Source of the DNA: Methanothrix sp. | GTDB lineage: Archaea; Halobacteriota; Methanosarcinia; Methanotrichales; Methanotrichaceae | Assembly (NCBI GenBank): GCA_026394565.1 | Contig: JAPKYA010000082.1 | Location: forward strand, 1 to 39,921 | Direction: 5' to 3' | DNA: 39,921 nt | Shown: piece after piece, positions 2,142 to 30,922 of the stretch | Position numbering within the stretch: position 1 is the stretch's first letter | How the letters are laid out: each line of letters starts with the position of its first letter | Translations under genes and position numbers: made by a program | The notes under the pieces: generated by a model | Database searches by the model: none | Seen by the model: the letters and a program-made list of their open reading frames with translations, nothing else | What the model was told of the DNA's origin: nothing

Positions 2142-2239
2142 AGGATTTCAAGGTAACTTGCCTCCTCAAAATTACCTAAAACCCCAGACAGAGGAGCAAT
2201 CAAAATGCTGATCTATTATAATGAGCATTGAGACATAAG

Positions 2240-2797: not shown

Positions 2798-2832
2798 TTA
2801 TAAATCGCGAACCTACCAAAAGATCCTTATAT

Positions 2833-2850
2833 ACGCATACACGCATGTTT
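2833..2850 (+). promoter_or_regulatory. Promoter with putative ArsR operator for the rhodanese operon
   Basis: A TATA-like TTATATA (about 2827-2833) runs into ACGCATACACGCATGTTT, ending 17 bases before the rhodanese ATG. The same arrangement occurs upstream of the ahpD-like operon (9080-9104), where 14 of 18 aligned positions match, and more weakly at arsR (4824-4848). I infer shared control by the ArsR encoded at 4853. Confidence 0.45.
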
Positions 2851-2867
2851 TCCGGTGGGGGATAGAC

Positions 2868-3905: not shown

Positions 3906-3921
3906 ATGGGGGTAATTTATT

Positions 3922-4326: not shown

Positions 4327-4811
4327 GGACAAATATGCTCTATACAGGGATCGCATTTTTCGCAGTTCTGGCTGTCCACATTGCTTATTTTGCATGGGCA
4401 GCAACGCAGGTACATAGTGCGTGGGTTCAACCTGAGGATGTCGGTTGGCTTACAAACTACATCTCGAATCAGGACTACATGGTGGGGATCTCTTACGCTC
4501 TTGCTGGTGCGTTTACCGTTTACGCATTTCTAAAGCTCTCTGAGAGACGTGAAAGAGGCATTGTGGGAATGCTGGGTGGCCTCACTTTGACGGGATTTCT
4601 TTATTTTGGAGTATGCTTTTTCACAGGCTGCTGTGGTTCGCCCATGCTTGCCGTCTATCTAAGTGTCTTGGGGCCGTCGTTTCTGGGTTTCACAAAGCCC
4701 ATTATTTTGTTGATTACGATCATATCGATCGCAGCCAGTTATTTTTGGATGGAGAGAAAAGCCGGAAAACCATGTGCCTGCTCTGCAGGGGGAGGATGCA
4801 ATAGCAAGTAA
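4323..4811 (+). CDS. Four-helix membrane protein with Cys-rich cytoplasmic-type tail
   Basis: 162 residues with about four hydrophobic segments: near residues 6-27, 55-70, 83-103 and 120-140. The third contains GVCFFTGCCGSPM and the C-terminus ends CACSAGGGCNSK, both plausible metal or metalloid ligands. The start codon overlaps the preceding stop. No family is recognised; it is not MerT or ArsB by sequence. Its place between an exported rhodanese/OB pair and arsR suggests a membrane partner in metalloid or sulfur handling. Confidence 0.6.
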   Translation: MRTNMLYTGIAFFAVLAVHIAYFAWAATQVHSAWVQPEDVGWLTNYISNQDYMVGISYALAGAFTVYAFLKLSERRERGIVGMLGGLTLTGFLYFGVCFFTGCCGSPMLAVYLSVLGPSFLGFTKPIILLITIISIAASYFWMERKAGKPCACSAGGGCNSK

Positions 4812-4823
4812 CGCCAAAAACTT

Positions 4824-4848
4824 CATATATGCACATATTAACATATGG
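4824..4848 (+). promoter_or_regulatory. TATA/operator region of arsR
   Basis: CATATATGCACAT is followed by a perfect inverted repeat CATAT-TAAC-ATATG (4834-4847), ending six bases before the arsR ATG. The left part is shared with the site at 9080-9104 (CATATATGCGCAT). A repressor bound here would cover the promoter, fitting ArsR autoregulation. Confidence 0.5.
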
Positions 4849-4852
4849 ATGA

Positions 4853-5185
4853 ATGAACCAAATGGAACAATATGTTGAGCTATTTAAGGCGCTCTCCGAC
4901 GAAACACGTCTGAGGCTCGTAGTCTTGCTTCACAAGAGGGAGCTTTGCGTCTGTCAAATCGAGGCCGCTCTTGGCATCTCTCAGACAAAAGCTTCCCGTC
5001 ACCTGGCAATCCTACGTCGTGTCGGCCTATTAAAGTCCAGGCGGAATGGCTTATGGGTTTATTATACTCTGGCAGAACCAGGAAATAATGTGGAAGCGAA
5101 TCTATTTCAAAACCTTAGCGATTCCTTGTGCACCGACCTGTCTTCCATGGAAGATCTGGCTAAAAAGAAAACTTGTGATACATAA
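4853..5185 (+). CDS. arsR: ArsR/SmtB-family repressor
   Basis: 110-residue winged-helix regulator. The N-terminal helix has ALSDETRLRLVVLL, the family's dimer and DNA-reading frame. ELCVCQIEAALGISQTKASRHLAIL contains the alpha3-type metalloid site C-V-C and the recognition helix, and SRRNGLWVYYTL is the beta wing. More Cys residues occur near the C-terminus (SLCTDL, KKTCDT) and could contribute ligands. It is convergent with arsA, the two stops being only 7 bases apart, and lies at the end of the rhodanese gene set but has its own operator-like promoter. The likely inducer is trivalent As/Sb or another soft metal; the specificity is inferred. Confidence 0.9.
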   Translation: MNQMEQYVELFKALSDETRLRLVVLLHKRELCVCQIEAALGISQTKASRHLAILRRVGLLKSRRNGLWVYYTLAEPGNNVEANLFQNLSDSLCTDLSSMEDLAKKKTCDT

Positions 5186-5192
5186 TTAAGTT

Positions 5193-6986
5193 CTACATTG
5201 CAGGCAATGATGTATTCGATCTTGCTGAGCACTTCTGCTGTTCCACATCTTTGATTCCGCCCGGCTGCCATGGTAAAATGACCACATTGTTAGCCAGCTT
5301 TGAAGCTACTTCATCAATGTATTTTAATTCATTAGCACCCCTAGTTGCAAGAAGCGTGTCGACAGTTCCGGATAAGGCGAAGCTCTGGTTGATGATCCAG
5401 GCGAAGGGCTCAATTTGCGCCCGTCGCAGATCATCTTGCAAGCGCGCCGCCTCGTGGACCGGTGTCGCCTCCGGCAGAGTCACCAGAAGAATCTTGGTAA
5501 ATTCCGGATCACGTAAGCGCGGCAGGAGTTCTTTCACCTCTTCGGCAACACCGTCTAAATTCTTTTCCACTTCGCGGTGATAGGATTTTGTGGCATCCAG
5601 CAGGAGCAGAGTGTGGCCGGTCGGAGCGGTATCCAGCACTATGAAATGATCTCGTCCCAGGGCAACTGCATGGGCAAATGCTCGAAAAACAGCGATCTCT
5701 TCGATACAAGGAGAGCGAAGTTCTTCCTCCAGCAGAGCCATGTCTTCGTCCGACAGCGTTCCTTTCTTCTCTTCAAGAATGTTCTCGACATACTTGCGAT
5801 TTTCTTCTTTGGGATCAATTCGACTGACCTGAAGATTGGGGGACGCCTGGCCTAGCATATCCTGAATGTGGGCGGCGGGATCGGTGGTGGACAGATGAAC
5901 CGGATGCCCGCGACTGGCCAGTTCCGTAGCTATGGCCACAGCCACAGAGGTCTTCCCGACGCCGCCTTTGCCCATGGTCATAATGAGGCCCCTTCCGTTT
6001 TTTGCCAGGCTGTCCAACAGTTTTTCCCATCGTTCCGTCTGGCCCAGGAGACGAATGCTGCCGGTTCGCAGTTGTTCCACAATATCCGGGGCGCAGATGA
6101 CAGGCTTGCCGCGAACGGTTTCCCGAATGGCTTTGAGACCGGTCAAACCTTGTGGATTAAAGCCGACCACGGTACGCGGCAGCCGTGCCAGCCTTTCCGG
6201 CATGGAGGCTAAGGCCGCTTCCGCTTTGCGGGAAAAGGCTTTGGCGACGGGGTCCGATGATGTGGTTTGAAAAAGACCGTTGATAATCAGGTGCTGATTC
6301 TTCATTCCTATTGCATGCAGCTCCGCACTAGCGCGGGCGGCCTCTTTGAGCGTGATCTCTTCGGCTCGGGCAACTAGGATAAGAAGCGTCTTTTGAGAAT
6401 TGGTGAGCGACTTCACCGCTGCCTCATAAACAAGACGTTGATCCTTGAGGCCGGAAAGAGGACCGATGCAGGAGCTGCCGCTGGTGTTTGCGATTATGAA
6501 ATCGTTCCATGCTGCAGGCAGGCTGAGCAATCTTAAGGTGTGGCCCGTCGGCGCTGTATCGAGGACAACATGGTCGTAGTCCCTGGCGGCGCTGTCATCG
6601 CCTATGAACCGCGTAAATTCATTGAAGGCCGCGATCTCAACCGTGCAGGCTCCGGATAGTTGTTCTTCGATGGATTGCACTGCTTCGTCCGGCAATACTC
6701 CCCGATAAGGTCCGACGATCCTTTCCCGATATTCTGCGGCAGCTTGGACCGGATCAATATTCATAGCCCACAGGCCTGGCTGGCCAGTGATCTGCGTAGG
6801 CCGACCGGTAAGGGGTGTTTCCAGCACCTCATGCAGGTTTGATGCCGGGTCGGTGCTGATCAAGAGAACCTGTTTCCCTTGATCGGCCAGCGCGAAGGCA
6901 ACAACACAGGACATGGATGTTTTCCCGACACCACCCTTTCCGGTGAAAAATAGAAAACGGGGGACGCTTGCGATTAGCTTCTTCAT
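5193..6986 (-). CDS. arsA: ArsA arsenite-stimulated ATPase (tandem two-domain form)
   Basis: 597 residues from ATG 6986, which overlaps the arsD stop (AATGA); the frame extends a little upstream but that part lies inside arsD. Two ATPase halves each have a deviant Walker A (FFTGKGGVGKTS at ~14-24 and TMGKGGVGKTS in the second half) and the ArsA signature DTAPTGHT. All three metalloid-binding cysteines of the classical bacterial enzyme are in context: GACTVEIAAF, SSCIGPLSG and SPCIEEIAVF. Such ArsA energises efflux through an ArsB-type or other carrier and receives As(III)/Sb(III) from ArsD. No arsB or acr3 is seen in the window, so its membrane partner is unknown. It is the last gene of the ahpD-trx-ccdA-arsD-arsA operon. 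Confidence 0.95.
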   Translation of the reverse strand: MKKLIASVPRFLFFTGKGGVGKTSMSCVVAFALADQGKQVLLISTDPASNLHEVLETPLTGRPTQITGQPGLWAMNIDPVQAAAEYRERIVGPYRGVLPDEAVQSIEEQLSGACTVEIAAFNEFTRFIGDDSAARDYDHVVLDTAPTGHTLRLLSLPAAWNDFIIANTSGSSCIGPLSGLKDQRLVYEAAVKSLTNSQKTLLILVARAEEITLKEAARASAELHAIGMKNQHLIINGLFQTTSSDPVAKAFSRKAEAALASMPERLARLPRTVVGFNPQGLTGLKAIRETVRGKPVICAPDIVEQLRTGSIRLLGQTERWEKLLDSLAKNGRGLIMTMGKGGVGKTSVAVAIATELASRGHPVHLSTTDPAAHIQDMLGQASPNLQVSRIDPKEENRKYVENILEEKKGTLSDEDMALLEEELRSPCIEEIAVFRAFAHAVALGRDHFIVLDTAPTGHTLLLLDATKSYHREVEKNLDGVAEEVKELLPRLRDPEFTKILLVTLPEATPVHEAARLQDDLRRAQIEPFAWIINQSFALSGTVDTLLATRGANELKYIDEVASKLANNVVILPWQPGGIKDVEQQKCSARSNTSLPAM

Positions 6987-7486
6987 TTGCAGCATCCTTC
7001 GGCACAGCAAACGTCGGGTCTCGCAGTCTTATCATCAATTCCCAACAAAGCAAAGAGCTCTTCTGCCTTGGGATAACGTCCTGCTATCTTTGGTTCATCG
7101 TTGACGAAGATAAAGGGCAGTCCATCCTTGCCGAGTTTGGTCAAAAGCTCCTTCACCTGCGAATTTTCCGCAAATGCCTGCGGTTGCTGGGCAAGGTTCC
7201 AGCGTTCAACTGCAATCCCATGCGTTGCGAGCGATTTCAATGCACCAGCAAATTCCACCAGCGTGCTGTTCACATTCGATCCGCAGACGCCGCTGGAGCA
7301 GCACATCGGCGGATCATAAATTTTTAAGATATTTTTCTTGCCTCCATATTCGGTTTCACTGATTTTGTTTTTCGGACCGCAACAGATAACTCCTGGGGCG
7401 CAACAACTGCCGGCTCCGGTCATGGTTTTCCAGATAGATCCAAGCAATCCCTCTTTCTTTTTAGCTTCATCCGTTTTCATGCTCAT
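6983..7486 (-). CDS. arsD: ArsD metallochaperone with N-terminal Cys-rich extension
   Basis: ArsD delivers As(III)/Sb(III) to ArsA. The canonical part starts at ILKIYDPPMCCSSGVCGSNV, with the vicinal Cys pair and third Cys of the high-affinity site, and continues to GLPFIFVNDEPKIAGRYP. The C-terminus, VCCAEGCCK, gives the two further vicinal pairs. Before the canonical start there are ~50 extra residues containing GSCCAPGVICCGPKN, i.e. two more CC pairs, which ordinary ~120-residue ArsD lacks. ATG 7486 is preferred because GGGAAG precedes it; GTG 7492 is possible. The stop overlaps the arsA start. Confidence 0.92.
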   Translation of the reverse strand: MSMKTDEAKKKEGLLGSIWKTMTGAGSCCAPGVICCGPKNKISETEYGGKKNILKIYDPPMCCSSGVCGSNVNSTLVEFAGALKSLATHGIAVERWNLAQQPQAFAENSQVKELLTKLGKDGLPFIFVNDEPKIAGRYPKAEELFALLGIDDKTARPDVCCAEGCCK

Positions 7487-7499
7487 CTTCACTTCCCTA

Positions 7500-8216
7500 T
7501 CAAAACGTGCTGAGGAAATAGAAGCCCACGCCGATCAAAACGACTCCTGCTACAAGTCGGATTGCAGCGTCTGCTTTCTTCAATCCGATAGCGGATTTGC
7601 CTAGAGTTACACCTAACATGAGTGCGGCTAAAGGCAGGCTGAAGCCGACGGCATAGGCACCCAGGATTCCAAACATCCAGAGCGTATATCCCTGCAATAC
7701 CGCTACTCCCAGGATGATGAATATCCCGGGGTTGCAGCCCAGAGAGCACACGCTTACCGCTCCGCCCACAATGAGTCCGACTGCCGCTGCCTCTAATAGC
7801 CCTCGTCTTCGAGTTTCTACTGACCTCTTCTGTCTCCCTGGAATTTTGAAGGGAAGGAGATTCAGGGCACCAAGGCCAACGATGATAGCGATAACTCCCG
7901 CGAAGACCTTCCAGTAATTTCCAAGGACGCTTTGGGCGACCTGCCCGATCAGTCCGGCAACGCTTCCAAGAATGAGCAGAGCAATGATCGAGCCGACCAT
8001 GAAGAAAAACGCTCCAAGCAGATTGGAACGCCGATCGTTTGTATCTTGCATTCCGGCGTATCCAACGATGGCGCCAAACACCGGCAATGTGCAACAGGTG
8101 CTTGCCACTGCGCTGGCCAGGCCCAGAAGAAAAGCCATGGGCAGCGCCATTGGGCTCATTCCGGCCTGTTCAAGCGCCGTCTTGGCCCATTCAGCAGGGT
8201 ATAAAAGCCAGTCCAA
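7500..8216 (-). CDS. CcdA/DsbD-type transmembrane thiol carrier
   Basis: 238 residues with about six membrane helices. The two redox Cys positions of the CcdA/DsbD-beta family appear as STCCTLPVFG in the first helix and SLGCNPGIF in a later one. Such proteins carry electrons from cytoplasmic thioredoxin across the membrane to extracytoplasmic thiols. The start is TTG at 8216, supported by GGAGAGGTC just upstream. It lies 8 bases from the arsD start and 18 bases after the Trx-like gene, in the operon with arsDA. This links arsenic resistance to transmembrane thiol reduction. It is a distant paralogue of the protein at 28464. Confidence 0.85.
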   Translation of the reverse strand: MDWLLYPAEWAKTALEQAGMSPMALPMAFLLGLASAVASTCCTLPVFGAIVGYAGMQDTNDRRSNLLGAFFFMVGSIIALLILGSVAGLIGQVAQSVLGNYWKVFAGVIAIIVGLGALNLLPFKIPGRQKRSVETRRRGLLEAAAVGLIVGGAVSVCSLGCNPGIFIILGVAVLQGYTLWMFGILGAYAVGFSLPLAALMLGVTLGKSAIGLKKADAAIRLVAGVVLIGVGFYFLSTF

Positions 8217-8234
8217 TCCGACCTCTCCTTTTTA

Positions 8235-8744
8235 TTAGCAAGGCAGTGCACAGCTCCCTGGACTGCAGCCTGAAGGTCGCGATGCCGTTACTAGGGATTG
8301 CAGCAGATTCGCTTCCGTTATATTAGTAGTAGCAATACTATTGCCGGTATTGTTGACCAGTGCCAATACACATGGGGTAGGCACTTGACTGGTCACTTGG
8401 GCATAATCCACAGAGCCTTCATCCATTACGAAGAAGGCCATCTTTGTCCCTTGTGATTGCGCCTTTCCTGCTGCCGCTTCGATTTCCTTCTTGACGCTCT
8501 CATCAGGGCTTTGGCCCTTAGCGGGCAGATAAAGGAAGACCGCGTCTTTCTGGTCGGCCACTTCATTAAGAGAGGCAAGAGATTCAAGCGGCTTGTCCCA
8601 GAGCAGAGAATTTGCCGGATCCGTCTCACTCCCATTTTCGGCTGTATTTGGGGAAGATGCCTTCTCAGCCCCCTGCCATTGTCCATGGCGTTGTCTCCTT
8701 CTTGCATTTAGCGGCAGCCATTTCCCGCACCATTGTCGCAACAT
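8235..8744 (-). CDS. Thioredoxin-fold-like protein with Cys-rich C-terminus; N-terminus uncertain
   Basis: The recognisable part runs from LWDKPLESLASLNEVADQ to the end and has a thioredoxin-like alternation: DAVFLYLPAKG, KMAFFVMDEG, then TPCVLALVNN (a cis-Pro-like TP). No CxxC is present at the usual N-terminal place. The protein ends CSPGSCALPC. The first ~12 residues overlap the ahpD-like gene out of frame, and the N-terminal ~45 residues look unlike a natural start. An ATG with GGAG upstream exists only in the neighbouring frame (ATG at 8686, MDNGRG), which suggests a frameshift or a later non-ATG start. Function is inferred from the operon only. Confidence 0.55.
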   Translation of the reverse strand: MLRQWCGKWLPLNARRRQRHGQWQGAEKASSPNTAENGSETDPANSLLWDKPLESLASLNEVADQKDAVFLYLPAKGQSPDESVKKEIEAAAGKAQSQGTKMAFFVMDEGSVDYAQVTSQVPTPCVLALVNNTGNSIATTNITEANLLQSLVTASRPSGCSPGSCALPC

Positions 8745-8983
8745 GGGGAAGGTTTGTTTTCAGAATCTACAATGATTCCTTCGGCAAACCTGTCCATGGC
8801 CGACATGGCCCCTTTCTGGACCATTCGTCCTACGGCGATGGCTTCCTTGATCTCATCTTCTCCGATTCCATGTTTTCTAGCCTTTTCGACATGAAAGGTT
8901 AAACAGGGCTGACAATGAGCGGCTAAAGACGCCCCAATGGCAATGAGTTCTTTTGTATTTTCGTTCATTTTCATTTGCTCCAT
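8708..8983 (-). CDS. Carboxymuconolactone decarboxylase / AhpD-like protein
   Basis: 91 residues. The AhpD-type core ELIAIGASLAAHCQPCLTFHVEKA has the CxxC (C24, C27) and the His three positions later that form the redox site in alkylhydroperoxidase-like small proteins. IKEAIAVGRMVQKGA completes the domain. The C-terminus SPCCDNGAGNGCR adds a CC pair. It is the first gene of the arsDA operon. ATGs at 8983, 8974 and 8968 are all possible starts; GGAG within the first codons favours a later one. A thiol oxidoreductase role connected to arsenic is inferred. Confidence 0.8.
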   Translation of the reverse strand: MEQMKMNENTKELIAIGASLAAHCQPCLTFHVEKARKHGIGEDEIKEAIAVGRMVQKGAMSAMDRFAEGIIVDSENKPSPCCDNGAGNGCR

Positions 8984-9079
8984 TTTCTCATTTGGTTAGA
9001 GTTGCAGGCAGTGTTTCGGCAACGGCACGAATCCTATCAAGCATCCGGCGATTGCAGTTGAGCTTTTCGTCTCCTTCTC

Positions 9080-9104
9080 AAACATGTGAGAATGCGCATA
9101 TATG
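9080..9104 (-). promoter_or_regulatory. Promoter/operator of the ahpD-trx-ccdA-arsD-arsA operon
   Basis: Read on the minus strand, CATATATGCGCAT is followed by TCTCACATGTTT. It closely resembles the arsR site (4824-4848) and the rhodanese-operon site (2833-2850). It lies ~97 bases before the first ATG, so a leader of roughly 70-95 bases is expected. That leader contains a possible 18-codon ORF (8988-9044). Confidence 0.5.
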
Positions 9105-9179
9105 AATGTTGTGGCAAGATGTATGTTATGATTTTGGCCCGAAGCATCATTGGGCAGAAATATCTCCGCATTTCTTATC

Positions 9180-10079
9180 CTAAGCCACCAATAGATTGGC
9201 CAGATATCCCGCAGCCACTGCTATTGCAAAGATGGTGAGCACAAAGGCTGCCAGCAGCTTCTTTTCAAATATGGCTGAGAGAAGCGTTAGCTCCGGGATG
9301 CTCGCCCCAGCTCCGCCGATAACCAGCGCCAGGACGGCCCCCACGCTCATGCCTTTCTCGATAAGTGCCAGGCCGATGGGGATCATGGTCTCCGCCCGAA
9401 TGTAGATGGGAACACCGATGATGGCGGCCACAGGAACGGCCAGGGGATTGTCCGGCCCTGCGAAGCGAGAGATGATCTCCGTAGGAACGAATCCGTGAAT
9501 GAATGCGCCGATGCCTGCGCCTAGCAGGAGATAGGGCACAAGCTGACGGAATAGGCCGAATGCGAATGCTGCAGAGCGCTGTATTCTCGATCTCGCGTCT
9601 GTTGCCTGCTTGCAGTCACAGCAGCTTCGTACTGCGGCCATGGATTTCATCTGGTCGGCGAAGCCGAGAGCGTCGAGCAAAAGGCCGATGGCAATTGCGC
9701 CCACGAAGGTGACGGCAAAATAGAGTGCAGCTACCTTCCAGCCCATCAGAATGACGAACAAGGATATTATCACCGGGTTTAGCAGGGGTGACGCGAACAA
9801 GAATGCCATCGCTGAGGCGAAGGGCACGCCGGCATTGAGCATTCCCAGCAGAAGAGGTATGGTCGAGCAGGAGCAAAATGGCGTGAGTGCGCCAAAACCA
9901 GCGCCAAGAATGCTTCCCAGGACTTTGTGCCTTCCACCCAGGGCCTTTTTTATGGTCTCATCCGGCACGTACTCCTGGATCAGCCCCACGAGAAAGGTTA
10001 TGCCTATGAATAAAACGATCAACTCTACAGCGATTTCCACGAAGAAATTCGCCGCTACCGCTAAGTTGTTCCAGAACAT
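9180..10079 (-). CDS. arsP: ArsP / UPF0718 (DUF318) family permease
   Basis: About 299 residues with roughly eight membrane helices. The conserved family motif GALTPFCSCSTIPLLLGML lies in the first half, and PVAAIIGVPIYIRAETMIPIG in the second. Members efflux organoarsenicals (e.g. trivalent methylarsenite) or related compounds. The central loop holds RSCCDCKQ, a further thiol cluster. ATG 10079 with GAAGGAAATTG upstream is preferred to TTG 10094. It directly follows arsR (10099-10506), 19 bases downstream. The substrate cannot be read from sequence. A second permease of the superfamily is at 29418. Confidence 0.87.
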   Translation of the reverse strand: MFWNNLAVAANFFVEIAVELIVLFIGITFLVGLIQEYVPDETIKKALGGRHKVLGSILGAGFGALTPFCSCSTIPLLLGMLNAGVPFASAMAFLFASPLLNPVIISLFVILMGWKVAALYFAVTFVGAIAIGLLLDALGFADQMKSMAAVRSCCDCKQATDARSRIQRSAAFAFGLFRQLVPYLLLGAGIGAFIHGFVPTEIISRFAGPDNPLAVPVAAIIGVPIYIRAETMIPIGLALIEKGMSVGAVLALVIGGAGASIPELTLLSAIFEKKLLAAFVLTIFAIAVAAGYLANLLVA

Positions 10080-10098
10080 TTCAATTTCCTTCAAAATT

Positions 10099-10506
10099 TT
10101 ATTGTTTTTTCTTCAGCGCTCTGGCCTGTTTGACCATTTCCACGACAGCTCCATCCGCAAGTCGGTAATAGGACCATTTGCCGTCTCTGCGCTCTTTGAC
10201 AAGTCCCGCTTCTCTCAAGATGGACAGGTGATGGGAGGTGGAGGATTGCGGCTTTTTAAGGGCAGTCATGATCTCGCAGACACAGAGCTCTCCTTCTTTG
10301 AGCAGCTTCAGAATCCTGAGTCGGCAGGGGTCGGCTGCAGCCTTGAAGATCTCGACCTCTCCTTCAGGGCCTTCCATCTCGATATTTTTCATCAAAGAAG
10401 AGAGCTTCCTGGTCCGGGCCCTGGCTTTGTCAACGTCTCCAATGAGCCTGGCCAGGCTGCATATTGCTTCCTCATCGATCACATTGGTCGGTGATATTGG
10501 CATCAT
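10099..10506 (-). CDS. arsR: ArsR-family repressor (second)
   Basis: 135 residues. An N-terminal helical extension (about 45 residues, EEAICSLARLIGDVDKARAR) precedes the winged-helix domain AADPCRLRILKLLKEGELCVCEIMTAL. The C-V-C metalloid motif is in the same helix as in the 4853 protein, plus a Cys in DPCRLR. SSTSHHLSILREAGLV is the recognition helix. Start ATG 10506 follows AGGAAAAGGGG. It sits between the 96-residue Cys protein and arsP, and probably controls the promoter at 10881-10903. Conserved order small protein-arsR-permease implies a three-gene unit. Confidence 0.9.
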   Translation of the reverse strand: MMPISPTNVIDEEAICSLARLIGDVDKARARTRKLSSLMKNIEMEGPEGEVEIFKAAADPCRLRILKLLKEGELCVCEIMTALKKPQSSTSHHLSILREAGLVKERRDGKWSYYRLADGAVVEMVKQARALKKKQ

Positions 10507-10880: not shown

Positions 10881-10903
10881 ATCGATATAAGTTGATATAT
10901 AAG
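10881..10903 (-). promoter_or_regulatory. TATA box and putative ArsR operator of the 96-aa/arsR/arsP operon
   Basis: On the minus strand CTTATATATC (10903-10894) is a good archaeal TATA box about 25 bases before the expected start of transcription. It merges with an imperfect inverted repeat ATCAACTTATATCGAT (10896-10881). A regulator bound there would overlap the transcription start. This site differs from the one shared at 2833, 4824 and 9080, matching a different ArsR. Confidence 0.5.
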
Positions 10904-23838: not shown

Positions 23839-24600
23839 CTATCCCTTCTTCATCTTAGCCAGATCCTCAATGATTTCGACATACTGCTTGACCAAGGACT
23901 TGCTCATCTCCAGCTCAGAAGCAATATTTTCTGCGGGAATCCCATCGCCATGAAGCTTTAGAACCTTTTTAAAACCCTTGATGTACCTATCGCATGCTTC
24001 TTCACTGTGGGAAGTCCTCCTCGCGATCTCTGGCGTTGGGACGTTACTAACAAACTGCTGGATGATTATCTTCTTGTGAGTTAGTGTCGGACCAATATCG
24101 TGAATAGTCCCGCGATAAGGCAAGACAACGCCTTTTTCTAACTGGAACTCCTTGATGTCCTTGCCGATAGTGCCTGCACTCACTCCGATCAAGAGACTCA
24201 CGTCTGCCTGATTTAGGACGCCACCTTGCCCATAAGCTTCACGAAGTATCCTGGCCACCTTACACTTCCGGATCTCCTTGGCAGAATAACCATCAAGTCT
24301 CAGCTTTAAATCGTCCTGACTGGCAATGGATAAGATAACCGGAACCATCCTGGTGTTCTCGATAGTCTTGTTCCGCCCAGGATATTCATCTTTATGCGCT
24401 GCCCACCATACAACCTGACCGGCATCAAGTTTCCAGCCATCTTTCATATGTCTGTTGAACTCGACGAGCAAGTCCTTGATGAACATCTCCTGGATTTTTT
24501 CGCCTCCGAGGAACTTGTATTCCTGGGTGAGCATCTGCTTGACAGAGTTTTCGAATCCTTTATACTTCCGAAGGCTCCTCTCTGCATTTGAATCATTCAT
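23839..24600 (-). CDS. DUF1670-family HTH protein
   Basis: 253 residues from ATG 24600, which overlaps the stop of the upstream paralogue (TCATGA). DUF1670 hallmarks: GQVVWWAAHKDEYPGRNKT, RMVPVILSI, KVARILREAYGQGGVLNQADVSLLIGVSAGTIGKDIKEF (first HTH), GTIHDIGPTLTHKKIII, and a second HTH, NIASELEMSKSLVKQYVEII. The family occurs in methanogens and some bacteria, often as tandem pairs. Role is unknown but DNA binding is likely. Confidence 0.85.
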   Translation of the reverse strand: MNDSNAERSLRKYKGFENSVKQMLTQEYKFLGGEKIQEMFIKDLLVEFNRHMKDGWKLDAGQVVWWAAHKDEYPGRNKTIENTRMVPVILSIASQDDLKLRLDGYSAKEIRKCKVARILREAYGQGGVLNQADVSLLIGVSAGTIGKDIKEFQLEKGVVLPYRGTIHDIGPTLTHKKIIIQQFVSNVPTPEIARRTSHSEEACDRYIKGFKKVLKLHGDGIPAENIASELEMSKSLVKQYVEIIEDLAKMKKG

Positions 24601-25424
24601 GAGTTCATCACTCCGGGGCTCTCGCTGCATAGCTTCAAACTTTTTTTGGATGGCATAGGTTCGGATAGGATCTGCCGGAATCGCATTTGGGATTCTGGAC
24701 GATCCTTAAAAGTTTCGTAGAGGTCCAGATATTCCTGAATGAGTCTCTCAGACATGTCTGTCAGTTCGCGTATTTCTGGCAAGGAATATTCGCGACTGTA
24801 GAATCGAACTACCTTCGAGAAACCTGAGAGATACCTCTGAACCGAAAAGCCGGAGTGGCCGGTCTTGCGTTCGATGTCGGTGTACTCATAGCCTTCGAGC
24901 CACATCTTTACAACTTTCGATTTATGTGTCACCCCTGGGCCAATATCTTGAAGCGTTCCGCGGGTGGGAACATCGATTCCTTGCTGTTTCAACTCCTTAA
25001 CATCTCGCCTGATTGTTCTTCTGGAGGTGCAGAGAAGTACTGCCAGATCTTCTTGCGTCAGAAGACCGCTTTGATCCAGAGCTTCATTTGCCATCCGAAT
25101 TACTTTGTGCTTTCGCAATGCAGAAGTGCCTTCCTCGGATAGGACATTTAAATCGTTTCTGTCATGAAATGTTAGATGGACTGGGACCGTTTTTATGTCA
25201 GAAATTCTTTTACCAGGAGGCTCTGAGGCGGAGGCTGCATGGAAGACGATCTGGCCTTCATGAATCTTTTCGCCAAAGGTCTCGTTGACGAAATCCCATA
25301 TCAGATTCACCAGCGAGCGACATGTTGCCTTGGGAAAGGCGTAGTCGGTTTCAAGCGTTTGGAATAATCTATGCTGAGCGCTTCTCACCCAAGGACCCTT
25401 GTAAACCAGATCGGGCTCGTCCAT
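24597..25424 (-). CDS. DUF1670-family HTH protein (paralogue of the next gene)
   Basis: 275 residues if started at ATG 25424, where GGTGGG lies upstream; the open frame extends to 25574 but the extra part looks non-coding. Family segments: EGQIVFHAASASEPPGKR, TVPVHLTF, LLTQEDLAVLLCTSRRTIRRDVKEL (HTH), RGTLQDIGPGVTHKSKVVKM, and a C-terminal HTH, EIRELTDMSERLIQEYLDLY. It is co-translated with the downstream paralogue through a four-base overlap. A two-component DUF1670 pair is thus present. Confidence 0.82.
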   Translation of the reverse strand: MDEPDLVYKGPWVRSAQHRLFQTLETDYAFPKATCRSLVNLIWDFVNETFGEKIHEGQIVFHAASASEPPGKRISDIKTVPVHLTFHDRNDLNVLSEEGTSALRKHKVIRMANEALDQSGLLTQEDLAVLLCTSRRTIRRDVKELKQQGIDVPTRGTLQDIGPGVTHKSKVVKMWLEGYEYTDIERKTGHSGFSVQRYLSGFSKVVRFYSREYSLPEIRELTDMSERLIQEYLDLYETFKDRPESQMRFRQILSEPMPSKKSLKLCSESPGVMNS

Positions 25425-25605
25425 TTGTGTCATCCATCCCACCAATGCACGAATTCGTATGCAGAGGTATTTTAATGTAGGGGACATTTGGACGAATAGT
25501 AAAAACTGTGGACAGGGCGTGGTGGTCTGTCCGGGGGAAAAGGGGAAGCTTTGAGGCGATAGGCAGCCCTTCACTCAAAGCCTTTTGGGCGATCAGAACG
25601 CATCT

Positions 25606-25631: not shown

Positions 25632-26981
25632 TCAGGCCTTACCGGTTACTACTATCTCCAGAACATCTGCAAAGGTCTTTGCGCTGCCGGATGCAGTGGC
25701 CGCTATGCTCACTTTGTAAACGCCAGGAGCCACATTGGCATTCCAGATCCCTACATATTTGTATCCAGAGGTGCGTAGCAAGCTCGTTCTTGCTACCTCG
25801 GAGCCGTCTGGGCCGTTTACGATGGCGGTGCAGCGCAAAGCGCTATTTGCAGTCTGCACAGCGGTGCTGGACTGCGATGTCTTTCCTGAGGAACCCAGCT
25901 GAACCATCCCCGATTTATTCCCGGTGGCGCCTAAAGCGAACCCCTCAAATCCGCAGGTGGCGCATCCCTTGATTGTGAGTTTTACCTCGCCGTTTGACGA
26001 TGAATTCTCTGCAGCGTTTGTCTGCAACTCCAGGAAAGACGCCGTTAGGGTCGTAGTCGAGCCAAACCTTACGGGGTTGGGCTTGGCCTCGACATCCGTC
26101 AGCTCGAAGTTAAACTTGGGCTGGTTTTCCAGCCAGTCCCGCCAGGTATAAAGCCTGGCATCGAATCCCATGAGCTGCAGCGCGAACCAGACCAGGGAGG
26201 CCTCGACGCCCACGTTGGTGTAGACCACAATAGGCCGATCCTTCTCCAGCCCTGTGAAGACCTTTTGCAGATCTTCTTGCGGCTTAATACTCTCATTAAC
26301 CAGCACATTCTCATAAGGAATGTTTACCGCTCCGGGAATAGAGCCTATGCCGTAGTCCCTGGCGGGCCTGGCATCCACGATCTGGGCCCCGCCGTTAACG
26401 ACGAATTCATTGGTGGCGAGAAGCTCAGGCTTGAGCTGGGGGACATATTCTGTCTTCGGCCTTGTGGCAGACTTATTGCTGGTATTTCGCCCGGCTGCTG
26501 TCCAGTCATCGATGCTGCCGTCCAGAACTCTTACTTTTTCATGCCCCAGGTACTTGAGCAGCCAGTAGGTGAAGACCGCTGGGGATGGCCCGCCGCCGCA
26601 GGGAAGACACTCACCTGTAATTACCAGAGAGTCGTTTTGGGAAATGCCAGCTTCGCCAAGCAACCCGGCTATCTCCGAGGCGGACTTGATCCGACCACCT
26701 TCGTCTAAAAAGCCCTCGTAGTTGATATTGACGGAACCTTCCCTGTATCTGGTAGCATTGGGGCTGATGTCGAGCACGATGTCGTCAGGCGAGACCGCCG
26801 TCGGAGATATAAATGCCTCGGCAAACCTGCCCGTTTCCGTGCCCGCCAGGACTGGCGAGCTCAAGACCAGGCCATGCAGAAGGATGGAAATTATCCCATA
26901 AACGATCATCGTCTTCGCGCTGACCGAGAACCCCTTGCGTTCTGCTCGGCTGAAATCTGAAACAATATGTCGTAATGTCAT
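25632..26981 (-). CDS. Exported two-domain rhodanese-like protein with CxxC insertion and Ig-like C-terminal domain
   Basis: 449 residues from ATG 26981 (TTGGAGAAAAA upstream). The signal/anchor helix is MIVYGIISILLHGLVLSSPVLA. Rhodanese domain 1 has the loop VITGECLPCGGGPSPAVF, a CxxC where ordinary domains have no Cys; VRVLDGSIDDW follows. Domain 2 has QIVDARPARDYGIGSIPGA, but its active loop reads VVYTNVGVEASLVW, so the catalytic Cys is Thr. A ~115-residue C-terminal beta domain contains KGCATCGFEG. It is the last gene of the operon, overlapping no neighbour; its paralogue lies 26 bases upstream. Confidence 0.85.
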   Translation of the reverse strand: MTLRHIVSDFSRAERKGFSVSAKTMIVYGIISILLHGLVLSSPVLAGTETGRFAEAFISPTAVSPDDIVLDISPNATRYREGSVNINYEGFLDEGGRIKSASEIAGLLGEAGISQNDSLVITGECLPCGGGPSPAVFTYWLLKYLGHEKVRVLDGSIDDWTAAGRNTSNKSATRPKTEYVPQLKPELLATNEFVVNGGAQIVDARPARDYGIGSIPGAVNIPYENVLVNESIKPQEDLQKVFTGLEKDRPIVVYTNVGVEASLVWFALQLMGFDARLYTWRDWLENQPKFNFELTDVEAKPNPVRFGSTTTLTASFLELQTNAAENSSSNGEVKLTIKGCATCGFEGFALGATGNKSGMVQLGSSGKTSQSSTAVQTANSALRCTAIVNGPDGSEVARTSLLRTSGYKYVGIWNANVAPGVYKVSIAATASGSAKTFADVLEIVVTGKA

Positions 26982-27006
26982 TTTTTCTCCAAATAGTTTC
27001 CCGCCC

Positions 27007-28107
27007 CTAATCGGCAGCATCGCTCTTTAGCTCTTGATTTGTTGCCCAGTCCCGGTAATTGTAGAGCCTGGCATCATAGCCCATCATCTCCAAGGCGAAC
27101 CAGACCACAGATGCCTTCATGCCCGTATTGGTGAAGACAACTAACGGCTGGTCTTTGTCCAGCATCATGAAAACCTTATTCAACTGCTCCTCGCCCCTGA
27201 TCCTTTTTCCATTCAGCACGCTGGCATAGGGCATGCTGATTGATCCCGGTATGCTGCCGGACCCAAACTCCTGCAGGGTCCTGGCGTCGACAATCTGCGC
27301 CTGTCCGCTTTTGACGAAGTCGTAGGTGGCAGTATAATTTCCCGTCTCGGCCGGAATATAAATCTTGCCGGGGAGTATCTCGGCTTCTGTCGTAGTGGTC
27401 CGTCCCGATGCGGCCCAATCTTCAGCCGTCCCATCCAGGACCCTAACCCTCTCATGGCCCAGCCCCTTCACCATCCAGTAGACGTAAGTCGCCACAGATG
27501 GACCTCCCCCGCAGGGCAGGCATTCCCCGTAGAGCACGACTGAATCCTCACGTGAGATTCCCGCGTCCCCAAGGATTTTTGAGATTTCAGGAACGGGCTT
27601 CAAAACTCCCGCTTGCACATTGAACTCCATGTAAGGTATGACCACTGAGCCTGCAATATGGGTGCTGGAGTTCTCGCTCACGTCCAGCAGAATATCGCTG
27701 TCTGTGATATCTTCCAAAGGCGCAATGATGGCTTTTGCTTCATCGCTGCGTGTAATGTTTGATGGTTCTTCAGCAGGCTTCTTGGACGTGGCATTCCTAG
27801 TGTTGTCTGTCGTCTTATCTCCTGCAGTCTTAACATCGGTCGTTTCCGTTGTCTCAGTGGAAGCGCTCATGTTCCATCTCAACTCTCTTGACTTCGCCGG
27901 CCACTTGGCTGCAGTCTGTTCCTGGCTGCTGATAGGTTTTCCAATCTCATCCAGCTTGGCCATGGGGTCCCAGCCGCTGTCGTCGCAAGCCCCTCCTAGT
28001 GAAGCGCATTCAGCTCCGGCATATGCGCTCTGTGACAGCGCCATGACCGCCAATAAGGCTCCGCAGATTACAGGGATCAGCACGAATTTAGATTTTAGTA
28101 AATCCAT
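27007..28107 (-). CDS. Exported two-domain rhodanese-like protein with CxxC insertion
   Basis: 366 residues. The signal peptide is FVLIPVICGALLAVMALSQSAYA, followed by AECASLGGACDD, a Cys pair near the mature start. A ~65-residue Thr/Ser-rich linker precedes domain 1, whose loop is VVLYGECLPCGGGPSVAT (CxxC). Domain 2 keeps QIVDARTLQEFGSGSIPGS and the RDWATNQ end, but the active loop VVFTNTGMKASVVW has no Cys. It is more similar to the 25632 protein than to the 2868 protein. In the operon it lies between the CxxC thioredoxin and its paralogue. Confidence 0.86.
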   Translation of the reverse strand: MDLLKSKFVLIPVICGALLAVMALSQSAYAGAECASLGGACDDSGWDPMAKLDEIGKPISSQEQTAAKWPAKSRELRWNMSASTETTETTDVKTAGDKTTDNTRNATSKKPAEEPSNITRSDEAKAIIAPLEDITDSDILLDVSENSSTHIAGSVVIPYMEFNVQAGVLKPVPEISKILGDAGISREDSVVLYGECLPCGGGPSVATYVYWMVKGLGHERVRVLDGTAEDWAASGRTTTTEAEILPGKIYIPAETGNYTATYDFVKSGQAQIVDARTLQEFGSGSIPGSISMPYASVLNGKRIRGEEQLNKVFMMLDKDQPLVVFTNTGMKASVVWFALEMMGYDARLYNYRDWATNQELKSDAAD

Positions 28108-28169
28108 TTCATTCCACCAGATTTTTAGGCAGCTAGCTCTTCTTTTACCTTCTCTAATGAATTGCCTTC

Positions 28170-28406
28170 TTATTTATTGAGCATTCTTTTGATCTCTTCC
28201 ACGGTAGCCGTCTTGCCCATCATCATGGACTTACCGTCCACGTAGAGCGCCGGAGTCATCATCACCCCGCGGTCCATGATTTCCTGGATGCTGTCTACCT
28301 TTACAATCTCGGCCTCGATGCCCAGCTCCTGGACTGCCTTTTCTACGTTCTTTGTCAAGCTCTTGCACTTGGCACAACCCGTTCCTAAGACTTCTATCTT
28401 CACCAT
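28170..28406 (-). CDS. Small thioredoxin-fold CxxC protein (MTH895/TM0996 type)
   Basis: 78 residues from ATG 28406, five bases after GGTGA; 28415 is also possible. It reads KIEVLGTGCAKCKSLTKNVEKAV, with the redox GCxxC early in the fold, and PALYVDGKSMMMGKTATVEEI, with the cis-Pro. This is the archaeal glutaredoxin-like family of ~80 residues, often encoded beside ArsR and UPF0718 permeases. It probably reduces or shuttles thiols in the cytosol, feeding the CcdA-like protein encoded 58 bases upstream. Confidence 0.88.
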   Translation of the reverse strand: MVKIEVLGTGCAKCKSLTKNVEKAVQELGIEAEIVKVDSIQEIMDRGVMMTPALYVDGKSMMMGKTATVEEIKRMLNK

Positions 28407-28463
28407 TTCATTCACCTTTAGAGTTTGATTTTTATCGAATAAACTTGAGCCCTTTCCTTTAGC

Positions 28464-29324
28464 CTAAATCAGTTGCCAGTAGATGAGCGGGGCCAGAGCT
28501 AATAGCGTGATTCCCGTTATCAACCGGATGGCAACTCTGTGTTTGTTCCGGAAATTATCCACTTGCTTCGGACTCATACCTAATGCGATTATTCCTCCCA
28601 GGAGCAGCACTGGAAGTGCTATGCCCAGGTTATAAACCATCAGATAAATTAGCCCTGATGAGGCAAATCCATAGCTGGAGATTATACCGATGATAGCTAT
28701 GTAGACCCCTCCCACACAGGGGGCCCTTACCAGCGAGAAGAGCGCTCCTAAAAGGAAATAGGAGCTGACACTTCGGCTGGCAATGACACTATGGACATAT
28801 TTCTTAGTCCAATCCGTGCGGAAGAGGGACGTGCCTCCACTTTGCAGCCTCCTCGCGTCCTCCATCTGCATTACTCCCAAAAACAATAGGACAGCTGCCA
28901 GGACAAGGCGAAACATAGCGGCAGTGGACTTTTCCTGTAGAACACTAAATAGGCCTACTCCAAAAATAATGTAGACCACGAATGTACCCAAGGAAAAGAA
29001 GGCCACCATAGTCAAGATATCTCTTCTGCGGCCCGTACTTGCCAGCATTGAGCTTGCCAGAAAGGCTAGCATGGCCAGAAGACAGGGGTTGAAGCCTGCT
29101 AAAAGGCCGGCTGCAAAGACGGTAGCTATGGACGATATGGTAAGATCTTTGAGAGCATTTTCAGAAGCGCATGCCGGAGAGGCAATTACGGTGATCTGTG
29201 AGTTATCACTGGCTGTGGCAGGCGATAAAACCATGACTAAGGCTACTGTCAGCAGAATTGCTGTGATGCAATATCGTACAGCCTTCATTCTAGTCTTCCC
29301 GGATTGATGCACCATAGTAATCAA
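28464..29324 (-). CDS. CcdA/DsbD-type membrane thiol carrier with N-terminal leader
   Basis: 286 residues (start uncertain; ATG 29288, MKAVRY, is a good alternative). A signal-like helix (ITAILLTVALVMVLSPATAS) precedes the core. Core helices contain GLLAGFNPCLLAMLAFL and ALFSLVRAPCVGGVYIAI; each Cys follows the typical N-P-C or A-P-C context of DsbD/CcdA proteins. Six or more membrane segments are seen. It transfers electrons outward, here plausibly to the exported CxxC rhodaneses encoded two genes downstream. Distant from the 7500-8216 protein. Confidence 0.87.
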   Translation of the reverse strand: MITMVHQSGKTRMKAVRYCITAILLTVALVMVLSPATASDNSQITVIASPACASENALKDLTISSIATVFAAGLLAGFNPCLLAMLAFLASSMLASTGRRRDILTMVAFFSLGTFVVYIIFGVGLFSVLQEKSTAAMFRLVLAAVLLFLGVMQMEDARRLQSGGTSLFRTDWTKKYVHSVIASRSVSSYFLLGALFSLVRAPCVGGVYIAIIGIISSYGFASSGLIYLMVYNLGIALPVLLLGGIIALGMSPKQVDNFRNKHRVAIRLITGITLLALAPLIYWQLI

Positions 29325-29341
29325 AGCTGCAAATAGGAGGT

Positions 29342-29366
29342 TGCCGGAGGGAGGTTTTCTCCGGCA
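29342..29366. repeat. Inverted repeat between permease and CcdA-like genes
   Basis: TGCCGGAG (29342-29349) pairs perfectly with CTCCGGCA (29359-29366) around a nine-base loop, in the only long gap (93 bases) of this operon. On the plus strand it is followed by a T run, on the minus strand not, so it is not a simple terminator of the operon. It could set an RNA processing site or attenuate downstream genes. Confidence 0.5.
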
Positions 29367-29417
29367 GATTTTTCTGCTATGCTTGCCGATCTAGTCCGAT
29401 CGATCATCAGGATGTAA

Positions 29418-30491
29418 TCAGGAGACAATCGCTCCGTAGAGCATACCCACTAGAGTGGAGACTATCACTACCAGGCCGATATAAACACCCCCCTTCTTTA
29501 TGCCTATGATTCTTGTGATCACTATAATGCTTGGTAGGCTCAGCGATGGCCCGGCCAGGAGCAGAGAAAGCGCCGGACCTGCAGCCGTTATTCCTGTGCT
29601 GTAACCAAACAGAGTCCCTACTATTGGTACCTCCAGCAGGGTCGGCATATAGAGCAAAGCCCCGATAATAGAGGCTGTAAGGCACGCTAGGAAGCTGTTC
29701 GAGCCTAATGCGGTCCTGAGCAGCTCTGTGGGCATAAAGTAACCAATAATGCCCGTTATGAAGGTTCCAATCACCAGTAGGGGAAAGATCTTCTTGGTCA
29801 GAGACCAGGTCTCGTTGAAGAAGGCACTCTTTTCTTCAGAGGAGAAATATCTTGTCAGGACAAAAGCAGCAGCTACTATGAATGCAGCTACTATCGTCCA
29901 TTTCAGCGAAAATTCTAATTTTGAGGTGGCGGATAGCAACACTCCAATTAGGAGCGCAATGAATAGAACCGAAATGCGCTCAGTCCGACCACTTTCTTGT
30001 GGCTCGGTCGCCGCTTGGGTAGCTTGAGCTGGTGTATTGTTTGGTGGAATCTCGCACTTCTTAGGGCTTCTCTCGAATATGGCAGCCATGATCAGGCCGA
30101 TGATAACTGCCATAGATACTGCTGCAACTGCCCTGGCAATTCCCAGATCCAACCCAAGAACTCTTGCAGTGAGAACTATGGCCAGGAGATTTATGGCAGG
30201 GCCAGAGAAAAGGAAAGCAGTTGCAGGACCTATTCCTGCACCCTTCTTTTCTATTCCGGCGAACATGGGCAGTATAGTACAGCTACAGACTGCCAGTATT
30301 GTTCCGGATGTAGCTGCTACGCTATAGCATAGCCACTTGGGAGCATCTGCTCCAAAGTACTTAAGCACCATTTCCGTCTTGAGGAGTGCGGCGATGGCCC
30401 CGGCAATAAAAAATGCGGGTATCAGACAGGTTAAAACGTGCGCCGATAAATATTCCAGCAATGTTTGCAGTCCTGCTTGCAAGGCCGCCAT
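29418..30491 (-). CDS. UPF0718/ArsP-superfamily permease
   Basis: 357 residues with ~10 membrane helices. First half: HVLTCLIPAFFIAGAIAALL and TSGTILAVCSCTILPMFAGI, the family C-x-C motif, then FLFSGPAINLLAIVL. Second half: ALLYMPTLLEVPIVGTLFGY. A central hydrophilic loop of ~40 residues separates the halves. Family members export metalloid compounds; this branch differs from the ArsP-like one at 9180. It starts 22 bases after the arsR stop and leads the rest of the operon. Confidence 0.85.
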   Translation of the reverse strand: MAALQAGLQTLLEYLSAHVLTCLIPAFFIAGAIAALLKTEMVLKYFGADAPKWLCYSVAATSGTILAVCSCTILPMFAGIEKKGAGIGPATAFLFSGPAINLLAIVLTARVLGLDLGIARAVAAVSMAVIIGLIMAAIFERSPKKCEIPPNNTPAQATQAATEPQESGRTERISVLFIALLIGVLLSATSKLEFSLKWTIVAAFIVAAAFVLTRYFSSEEKSAFFNETWSLTKKIFPLLVIGTFITGIIGYFMPTELLRTALGSNSFLACLTASIIGALLYMPTLLEVPIVGTLFGYSTGITAAGPALSLLLAGPSLSLPSIIVITRIIGIKKGGVYIGLVVIVSTLVGMLYGAIVS

Positions 30492-30513
30492 GATGGTGTA
30501 TGTAACCGTAAAA

Positions 30514-30858
30514 TCAGCTCCCGTTGTTCAATGATTTCTCCAAAATTCTTCCTGCCTCAGCAAGTTGTGATATCTGCGTTAGGGCCAGGGAATCTACCAT
30601 GCGAATTATTTCGAATACCTGAGGATCTTTTATGCAGTAGACCGTCCTTTTGCCGTCTACCTTGCGCTCCAATATATCTGCTTCGTGAAGGATGTTAAGA
30701 TGCTTGGATATGGTGGATTGGGATCTCTGGAAAGCGGGGAGAATCTCGCAGACGCATTTCTCGCCTCCGGATAAATATTCCAGCAGACAAAGCCGGGTGG
30801 GATCGGATAAGGCGCTGAGGATCTTAACGCGCAAGTCCGAGACGGATTTCTGTGTCAT
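30514..30858 (-). CDS. arsR: ArsR-family repressor (third)
   Basis: 114 residues. Winged-helix core: LSDPTRLCLLEYLSGGEKCVCEILPAF, with the C-V-C alpha3 site and an additional Cys in helix 1 (RLCLLE); SQSTISKHLNILHEADIL is the recognition helix and KVDGKRTVYCIKD the wing. It is the first gene of the operon running to 25632. The palindrome at 30879-30890 is likely its operator. Confidence 0.92.
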   Translation of the reverse strand: MTQKSVSDLRVKILSALSDPTRLCLLEYLSGGEKCVCEILPAFQRSQSTISKHLNILHEADILERKVDGKRTVYCIKDPQVFEIIRMVDSLALTQISQLAEAGRILEKSLNNGS

Positions 30859-30878
30859 TATGAAAACAGGTTAAACTC

Positions 30879-30890
30879 ATATTCGAATAT
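30879..30890 (-). promoter_or_regulatory. Perfect 12-base palindrome, putative ArsR operator
   Basis: ATATTCGAATAT is fully self-complementary and lies 20 bases before the arsR ATG. Its core matches the AT-rich TGA/TCA-type dyads bound by ArsR/SmtB proteins. It would regulate the arsR-permease-ccdA-trx-rhodanese operon. Confidence 0.6.
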
Positions 30891-30922
30891 AAACTTATCG
30901 CCATAAGACGATGAATAGATAA

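Follow-up and report, generated by a model that had tools for sequence, protein, structure and literature searches.

We analysed a stretch of 39,921 nucleotides from Methanothrix sp. (GenBank assembly GCA_026394565.1, contig JAPKYA010000082.1; hereafter the window) and found a six-gene operon that may serve (organo)arsenical stress or efflux with the help of an extracytoplasmic dithiol relay. We give this reading, in which we infer the chemistry, a probability of about 0.45. The sequence-only reading of this DNA had placed a six-gene operon at 30858-25632, controlled by ArsR and encoding a membrane electron carrier and exported rhodanese-fold proteins with a CxxC. This proposal holds: the open reading frames (ORFs) lie at these coordinates, and Pfam and NCBIfam profile searches with curated cut-offs, which we used to assign window proteins to families, recovered the families and the CxxC rhodaneses. 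The ORF listing gives the order ArsR1-ArsP1-CcdA-Trx1-RhoA-RhoB, all on the minus strand, with intergenic gaps of -14 to +93 bp. The features are the following:

30888-30912, minus strand: candidate operator and TATA box, with the palindrome ATCGTCTTATGGCGAT at 30897-30912, then AAGTTTATA
30514-30858, minus strand: ArsR1, an ArsR/SmtB repressor (HTH_5, 6e-16; HTH_metalloreg; NF033788 above cut-off; CVC at C35 and C37)
29418-30491, minus strand: ArsP1, a permease of the ArsP/UPF0718 family (PF03773, 5e-68)
28464-29324, minus strand: CcdA, a membrane electron carrier of the CcdA/DsbD-TM type (PF02683, 4.5e-12; NPC and APC motifs)
28170-28415, minus strand: Trx1, a small CAKC thioredoxin of the MTH895/ArsE family (TIGR00412; Thioredoxin_3, 9e-26)
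27007-28107, minus strand: RhoA, a tandem rhodanese-fold protein, probably exported (Rhodanese match; CLPC codons within 27500-27525)
25632-27020, minus strand: RhoB, a tandem rhodanese-fold protein with an extra C-terminal beta domain, probably exported (CLPC codons within 26587-26612)

The alignment of ArsR1 proteins has only two conserved cysteines, C35 and C37. They form a CVC that is kept in 43 of 43 aligned rows and that we take to be the metalloid motif of ArsR-type regulators. The upstream regions of most ArsR1 genes share a palindrome, ATCGYCWTATGRCGAT, directly 5' of an archaeal TATA box (in this comparison, the called start of some ORFs lies too far 5' for the displayed stretch). 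The window copy has zero mismatches to the pattern and lies approximately 30 bp 5' of the start codon, hence the ArsR1 transcript should be near-leaderless. When the window was scanned for the palindrome plus TATA with up to three mismatches, only this site and its own reverse overlap were returned. We then turned to the 50 genomes of the family (the taxonomic order is represented by the same 50 genomes). Allowing up to one mismatch, we found 39 sites, spread over 32 of these genomes; a reversed-pattern control at the same threshold gave 0 sites. Comparison with the ArsP1 coordinates, together with a reading of L241, places 38 of the 39 sites directly before ArsR1-ArsP1, the exception being G029:C67. 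At this threshold, the ArsR1 regulon is the ArsR1-ArsP1 operon alone. The candidate operator, a palindrome preceding an archaeal TATA box, is new in this analysis.

The rhodanese profile (PF00581) matches RhoA and RhoB at 1e-17 and 1e-18, in two stretches per protein. Both N-termini have a hydrophobic stretch in hydropathy analysis, read by eye as a signal peptide, and export is therefore likely. The domain-1 loop of both proteins is GECLPCGGGPS, with the CLPC at residues 196-199 of RhoA and 138-141 of RhoB. Relative to a solved sulfurtransferase, ECLPC is an insertion exactly in this loop, and the catalytic C-R-I-G-E-R-S of domain 2 has become T-N-T-G-V-K-A in the Rho family, a threonine replacing the catalytic cysteine in RhoA. 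The stretch G-E-C-x-P-C-G is invariant across 20 aligned relatives. Among rhodanese rows, counted as ORFs of more than 230 residues within the fetched stretches, the domain-1 loop has a CxxC in 105 of 106 RhoA/RhoB (the sole exception is a diverged middle copy in L053); in some RhoB of the type II loci described below it is spelled CATC, CEPC, CESC or CPTC. The cysteine of the domain-2 loop is present in 0 of these 106 rows, whereas 2 of 2 ordinary TST-like paralogues have it. Hence, the proteins have the fold expected of an active sulfurtransferase and lack its catalytic domain-2 cysteine. A further cysteine pair close to the mature N-terminus is common among RhoA/RhoB, and the C-terminal beta domain of many RhoB contributes a third CxxC, usually spelled CATC.

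The predicted model of RhoB (mean pLDDT 78.7, pTM 0.68) places the CxxC at 138-141 in a loop between strand 132-135 and helix 146-157; the CATC of the window protein, at residues 353-356, falls in a low-confidence stretch. The best solved matches of the model in Foldseek are thiosulfate and mercaptopyruvate sulfurtransferases (E 2e-16, TM 0.72 by target). Two other interpretations were rejected. Arsenate reductases of the Acr2/Cdc25 type have an HCX5R motif, which is absent from the aligned loop sequences. A selenoprotein is ruled out by the RhoA and RhoB frames, which are open with Cys codons.

We detected RhoA homologues (E <= 1e-10) in all 50 family genomes. The DNA motif for GECxPCGGGP is present in at least 33 of the 50, and in 0 of 187 other genomes of the class and 0 of 377 others in the phylum sample; the two samples overlap and comprise 496 different genomes (0/496). 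Because the exact pattern misses variants like GECRPCGGSG, the 33 of 50 is a lower bound and the zeros are valid for the exact spelling only. In a search of 84,980 named species, relatives were found at no fewer than 79 loci (at least). Among the matches listed, 11 are from Methanothrix, Methanosaeta or Methanocrinis, and 67 are sulfurtransferase-like loci at 25-30% identity, of which 0 have the motif. To judge from these sequences, the probably exported CxxC-rhodanese pair is found almost only in this archaeal family. A Methanothrix-type CxxC rhodanese also occurs on a 4.2-kb contig (L118, JACIVP010000034.1) of a Methanosuratincola metagenome-assembled genome, perhaps through misbinning or transfer.

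Gene neighbourhoods were counted in fetched stretches, and many of the genomes are fragmented. L094 and L079, which overlap L053 and L081, were left out of the neighbourhood, tree, loop and strand-run counts, one row with a short domain stretch was left out of the tree, and ArsM labels below 150 bits and ArsC labels below 100 bits were excluded from counts. In the ars-type (type I) locus the order is ArsR1-ArsP1-(CBM96 protein)-(CcdA)-Trx1-(AhpD)-(DGC protein)-RhoA-RhoB, the bracketed genes being often missing; the window operon is a slimmed member lacking the CBM96 and DGC genes. ArsP1 and Rho occur in one same-strand run at 21 loci in 20 of the 50 genomes. Since the order recurs across two genera, it is more than chance. 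The full six-gene order, with interspersed genes allowed, is found in seven genomes (G000, G019, G024, G031, G037, G039 and G016, the last of which joins once its ArsR1 frame, intact on reading of L060, is included). G011 carries the set with RhoB but without RhoA. The sequence-only reading had made its case hang on co-occurrence beyond this genome, and the recurrence in relatives answers this point. Around the 51 ArsP1 loci of 45 genomes (one locus with two ArsP1 genes is counted twice), we found within 8 kb RhoA/B at 22 loci (20 genomes), ArsR1 at 43, Trx1 at 32, DGC at 24 and CcdA at 23. Runs of ArsP1 and Trx1 without any rhodanese exist in several genera. Probably, therefore, the operon is older and the two rhodaneses joined it later, unless they were lost repeatedly.

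The pair has a second context, the type II locus, in which it accompanies a subtilase (35 loci in 35 genomes). Its companions at these 35 loci are a NosD-like gene (34), a CBM96 protein (27), Fae-Hps (23) and TrxCcdA (20). L037 (937-12407) and its relatives, for example, encode APase, Fae-Hps, TrxCcdA, CBM96 protein, NosD-like, RhoA, RhoB, subtilase and aldolase, an arrangement kept in a large part of the family. Seven further Rho loci fit neither type.

Two observations concern the surroundings of the window operon. The 93-bp gap between ArsP1 and CcdA holds a 12-pair stem-loop (29341-29367), at a place where several relatives have a CBM96-type gene; it is perhaps a deletion scar or an attenuator, and a sigma-70 and terminator scan of this archaeal stretch added nothing beyond it. 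Directly downstream of RhoB lies a pair of tandem DUF1670 proteins (23839-25574, minus strand).

The link with arsenic comes from the CVC of ArsR1 and from the neighbours. Other ars genes occur within 10 kb of 12 of the 28 type I Rho loci (L219 is counted as ars-type solely for a nearby DGC gene), but near none of the 35 type II loci and none of the 7 others; the contrast between types I and II has a Fisher p of 1e-5, uncorrected for shared descent. They also occur within 8 kb of 12 of the 51 ArsP1 loci. The neighbours in L059 are an ArsM, which passes the NCBI cut-off for arsenite methyltransferases, and an ArsC-like protein with scores too low for the ArsC models. Among the substrates that the sequence-only reading had offered (As, Sb, Se, Te or sulfane sulfur), arsenic is thus linked, at part of the loci, by neighbouring ars genes; Se, Te and sulfane sulfur are less supported.

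The other components were assigned to families as follows. ArsP1 scores 229.9 bits against PF03773 (ArsP_1; cut-off 32.3), with matches at E <= 1e-60 in 45 of 50 family genomes. According to the accessible text of a review (PMC6205960), ArsP exports methylarsenite in bacteria, and the bacterial ArsP that was tested transports trivalent organoarsenicals but does not transport inorganic arsenite. The part of another article available to us (PMC11653729) argues that anaerobes use methylarsenite as a weapon against each other and that arsP serves as a resistance gene. CcdA scores 46.2 bits against PF02683 (DsbD_TM; cut-off 27.1) and retains both membrane Pro-Cys motifs, NPC and APC. Trx1 falls within the ArsE family (105.9 bits to TIGR00412, cut-off 62), and hydropathy of its start reveals no signal-peptide-like hydrophobic stretch.

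These elements suggest a possible course of events. As(III)/Sb(III) or a trivalent organoarsenical would bind the CVC cysteines and ArsR1 would leave the operator. Given that the operator is placed where the general archaeal factors should bind, this release would derepress the operon, a step suggested by the motif and the candidate operator. ArsP1 would export a trivalent arsenical, most likely methylarsenite. Trx1 would bring cytoplasmic electrons to CcdA, and CcdA would send them outward, in most relatives via its own exported thioredoxin domain, which the window clade lacks. RhoA and RhoB, in which a sulfurtransferase fold would have become a CxxC oxidoreductase, would be the outer partners. 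Purely by analogy, their dithiol might hold and hand off the exported arsenical, or restore envelope thiols blocked by it. Where CcdA is missing (9 of 21 loci), another locus would have to supply the carrier, e.g. the type II one.

Several observations weigh against this arsenical relay. ArsP1 is below the cut-off of both transporter subfamilies that it matches (106/300 and 91/325 bits). The two groups of arsP genes probably differ in function, according to the accessible text of the review (PMC6205960), and tested bacterial ArsP takes trivalent organoarsenicals; methylarsenite is therefore a first guess only. The window CcdA scores 43.6 bits against the ArsG model NF040495, whose cut-off is 200. 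The exported CxxC thioredoxin domain is kept in 17 of 21 CcdA of ArsP1-bearing loci and is gone from the window CcdA, where the remnant is SPACASENALKDL; the expected link between CcdA and Rho is thus lost in the window clade. Trx1 and CcdA are both present in 12 of the 21 ArsP1-Rho runs; of the others, 6 contain only Trx1 and 3 lack both genes. Therefore, the relay is not always operon-encoded. No other ars gene lies within 10 kb in 16 of the 28 type I loci, including the window, many of them on short contigs. Finally, the RhoA/RhoB pair sits in 35 type II loci without ars genes, and the main function of the fold may therefore be unrelated to arsenic.

The last point leads to the main alternative, general maintenance of envelope thiols, in which TrxCcdA, RhoA and RhoB would reduce or rearrange disulfides in proteins of the envelope and sheath in a DsbC/DsbD-like manner and the ars copy would be a stress-inducible paralogue not touching arsenic. 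It accounts for the type II locus of 35 genomes with no ars gene near, for the grouping of RhoA from both contexts in a single clade of the tree (34 rows, 100/97), and for the 9 of 21 ars-type loci without CcdA, which could share the type II carrier. It would also fit L080 (5522-10632), one of the seven loci outside both types, where a CxxC rhodanese comes directly after two ORFs (575 and 506 aa) matching the order of mspA, Mthe_1070 and Mthe_1071, sheath genes of Methanothrix thermoacetophila (names from the accessible text of PMC10470525). Yet this sheath neighbour is found in one genome, and the putative MspA ORF matches 2 of 50 genomes and has 3 cysteines; sheath maturation as the leading explanation was rejected because of these 2 of 50. 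Moreover, the ars-linked RhoB form a clade of their own with four unassigned copies (27 rows, 99/91) and lie behind ArsR1-ArsP1 and an operator with a single other occurrence in the 50 genomes. We regard envelope maintenance as rather unlikely. A role in sulfur transfer, where sulfane sulfur or thioarsenates are handled and the CxxC takes up or releases persulfide, would fit the rhodanese fold of RhoA/RhoB. It is also in line with L050 (13586-18936), which has the run ArsR3-Rho3 relative-SBF permease-HTH/FeS-DsrE-DsrE-DsrH-glutaredoxin-FTR (the permease, by our own reading only, is ACR3-type), with a run of similar gene lengths in L092 (lengths only), and with the DsrE- and DsrH-like genes that follow ArsM/ArsC in L059. 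The accessible text of PMC10451225 places sox genes under an ArsR-type SoxR and identifies SoxV as an orthologue of CcdA. The catalytic domain-2 cysteine is nevertheless missing in 106 of 106 RhoA/RhoB. Furthermore, ArsR1 scores 32.8 bits against the BigR model NF040642 (cut-off 155), and its C35/C37 are not a widely spaced pair like that of SoxR (Cys50 and Cys116 in the same text, PMC10451225). This makes sulfur transfer improbable. The run of L050 puts export of an arsenic type next to genes resembling a sulfur relay. Runs partly like it were seen in L191, without Rho3, and in L201, where Rho3 is elsewhere and the run has no permease.

Defence against selenite, tellurite or mercury, as in the ext, tso and sao loci, is suggested by weak NCBIfam matches to ExtH (25.7 bits), TsoB (15), TsoR (38) and SaoE (91). 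All are far below the cut-offs (200, 805, 115 and 325, respectively), the known neighbours are arsenic genes, and selenocysteine is absent, as the frames are open with Cys codons; we hold such a defence to be very unlikely. Even less probable, to the point of being hard to believe, is a role in cytochrome c maturation, where CcdA and CxxC proteins keep haem-binding cysteines reduced. Bacterial CcdA and CcmG do so, but ccmG and ccdA are dispensable in Methanosarcina acetivorans under laboratory conditions (both in the accessible text of PMC9084895), and this role leaves ArsR and ArsP unexplained.

The window contains further ars and rhodanese genes, which the sequence-only reading had described as a parallel set at 2868-9104 and interpreted together with the operon. 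These genes are present, in two convergent units, a plus-strand one at 2228-5185 (ArsC-like gene, Rho3, 134-aa protein, Cys-tailed membrane protein and ArsR2) and a minus-strand one at 10506-5193:

2228-2797, plus strand: ArsC-like LMW-phosphatase with an internal gap and a diverged C-terminal part; it matches the arsenate reductase models only in part and below their cut-offs
2769-3905, plus strand: Rho3, a double-rhodanese without CxxC (Rhodanese match; aligned loops)
3922-4326, plus strand: 134-aa protein, earlier labelled OB-like, with no family above cut-off
4323-4811, plus strand: Cys-tailed membrane protein ending in CACSAGGGC, without family match
5193-10506, minus strand: separate ars operon, ArsR3-ArsP2-AhpD-Trx2-CcdA2-ArsD-ArsA

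ArsP2, ArsR3 and the ArsC-like gene, the last perhaps decayed, had been missing from the earlier list, and several of its labels are weak. Besides the OB-like and Cys-tailed proteins, this concerns CcdA2, with no Pfam match and 38.3 bits to ArsG (cut-off 200), and Trx2, for which Pfam and NCBIfam searches gave no family match. The domain-1 CxxC is missing in 10 of 10 Rho3 rows, including that of the window. As the operator with TATA occurs once, before ArsR1, and Rho3 has no CxxC, we regard the two sets as separate and rejected a single system made up of both. The weak point of this separation is the bare palindrome, i.e. without the TATA requirement, which at one mismatch has 5 matches in the window versus 0.9 expected. 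Such copies lie at 8824-8839, inside AhpD, and at 10881-10896, 375 bp before the ArsR3 start, which leaves room for a remote or degenerate ArsR1-type site before ArsR3. In the sister genome G031 (L041), the ArsR3-ArsP2-AhpD-Trx2-CcdA2-ArsD-ArsA operon adjoins the RhoA/RhoB operon, with two unlabelled ORFs between them, which also speaks for the arsenic link of the latter.

The sequence-only reading knew of no description of this combination. This stands for the exported CxxC rhodaneses and for the operator, but many of the other parts are known from ars operons. That some of these carry a CcdA-type carrier of unclear use was noted in 2010 (accessible text of PMC2963123). Described ars operons (8 instances in 7 organisms, in the text available) likewise have CcdA, a thioredoxin and redox-active disulfide protein 2, the name of the model to which Trx1 belongs. 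That text names no exported partner of CcdA, whereas here two probably exported CxxC proteins are candidate partners. The authors of the work on CcdA in ars operons, in the text available, considered a flow of electrons across the membrane less likely, given the cytoplasmic location of ArsC.

Other systems share part of the design. The nearest analogue is Tso, a three-selenoprotein operon with an ArsR-type TsoR and with TsoB, a rhodanese with redox residues coupled to a DsbD-type domain (NCBIfam names; accessible text of PMC13188914). By analogy, TsoB hints that a DsbD-type carrier can be connected to a redox-active rhodanese domain. However, TsoB is a selenocysteine fusion, whereas the window has separate genes, cysteine, an archaeal host and a permease in addition, and the scores (15.2/805 bits for TsoB, 38.1/115 for TsoR) place the operon outside Tso. 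ArsEFG detoxifies organoarsenicals (as cited in the accessible text of PMC9144182). The operon resembles it in its ArsE-family thioredoxin, Trx1 passing TIGR00412, and in a membrane protein of the DsbD-TM type, but CcdA fails the ArsG cut-off (43.6/200). We know of no exported rhodanese in ArsEFG. ExtH of Geobacter sulfurreducens is a rhodanese-like lipoprotein of a selenite/tellurite-reduction locus; this locus, however, is an outer-membrane cytochrome conduit (accessible text of PMC5877670 and PMC6148476), and RhoB (25.7) and RhoA (16.2) are below the cut-off of 200 of the ExtH model NF040901. Thiosulfate and 3-mercaptopyruvate sulfurtransferases (1uar, 1urh, 3aax) have the same tandem rhodanese fold as RhoA/RhoB, but in the latter the catalytic cysteine of domain 2 is a threonine and a CxxC is inserted in the domain-1 loop. 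We found no description of exported CxxC rhodaneses in an ars operon in the open-licence literature, seen mostly as titles and abstract starts, which is weak evidence of absence. As far as these searches tell, the CxxC-rhodanese pair and the operator are new here, and much of the remaining operon has already been described.

A broader interpretation, which we put forward as rather unlikely, is that the Methanothrix lineage invented a new class of extracytoplasmic thiol oxidoreductases with a rhodanese fold. In this view, the sulfurtransferase site was lost, a CxxC arose in the loop of the other domain, and the protein came to act as the outer terminal of CcdA; one pair would have come under an arsenic switch and would spend cytoplasmic electrons outside the membrane to neutralise freshly exported trivalent (methyl)arsenicals. 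If true, this conversion of a rhodanese into a redox protein with a CxxC would be an elegant example of an enzyme put to new use. Because the operon offers candidate outer targets for the CcdA of ars operons, plus an operator, the question of what CcdA does in such operons becomes testable. A clade-specific fold conversion, a strict candidate operator and the CcdA question meet here in testable form.

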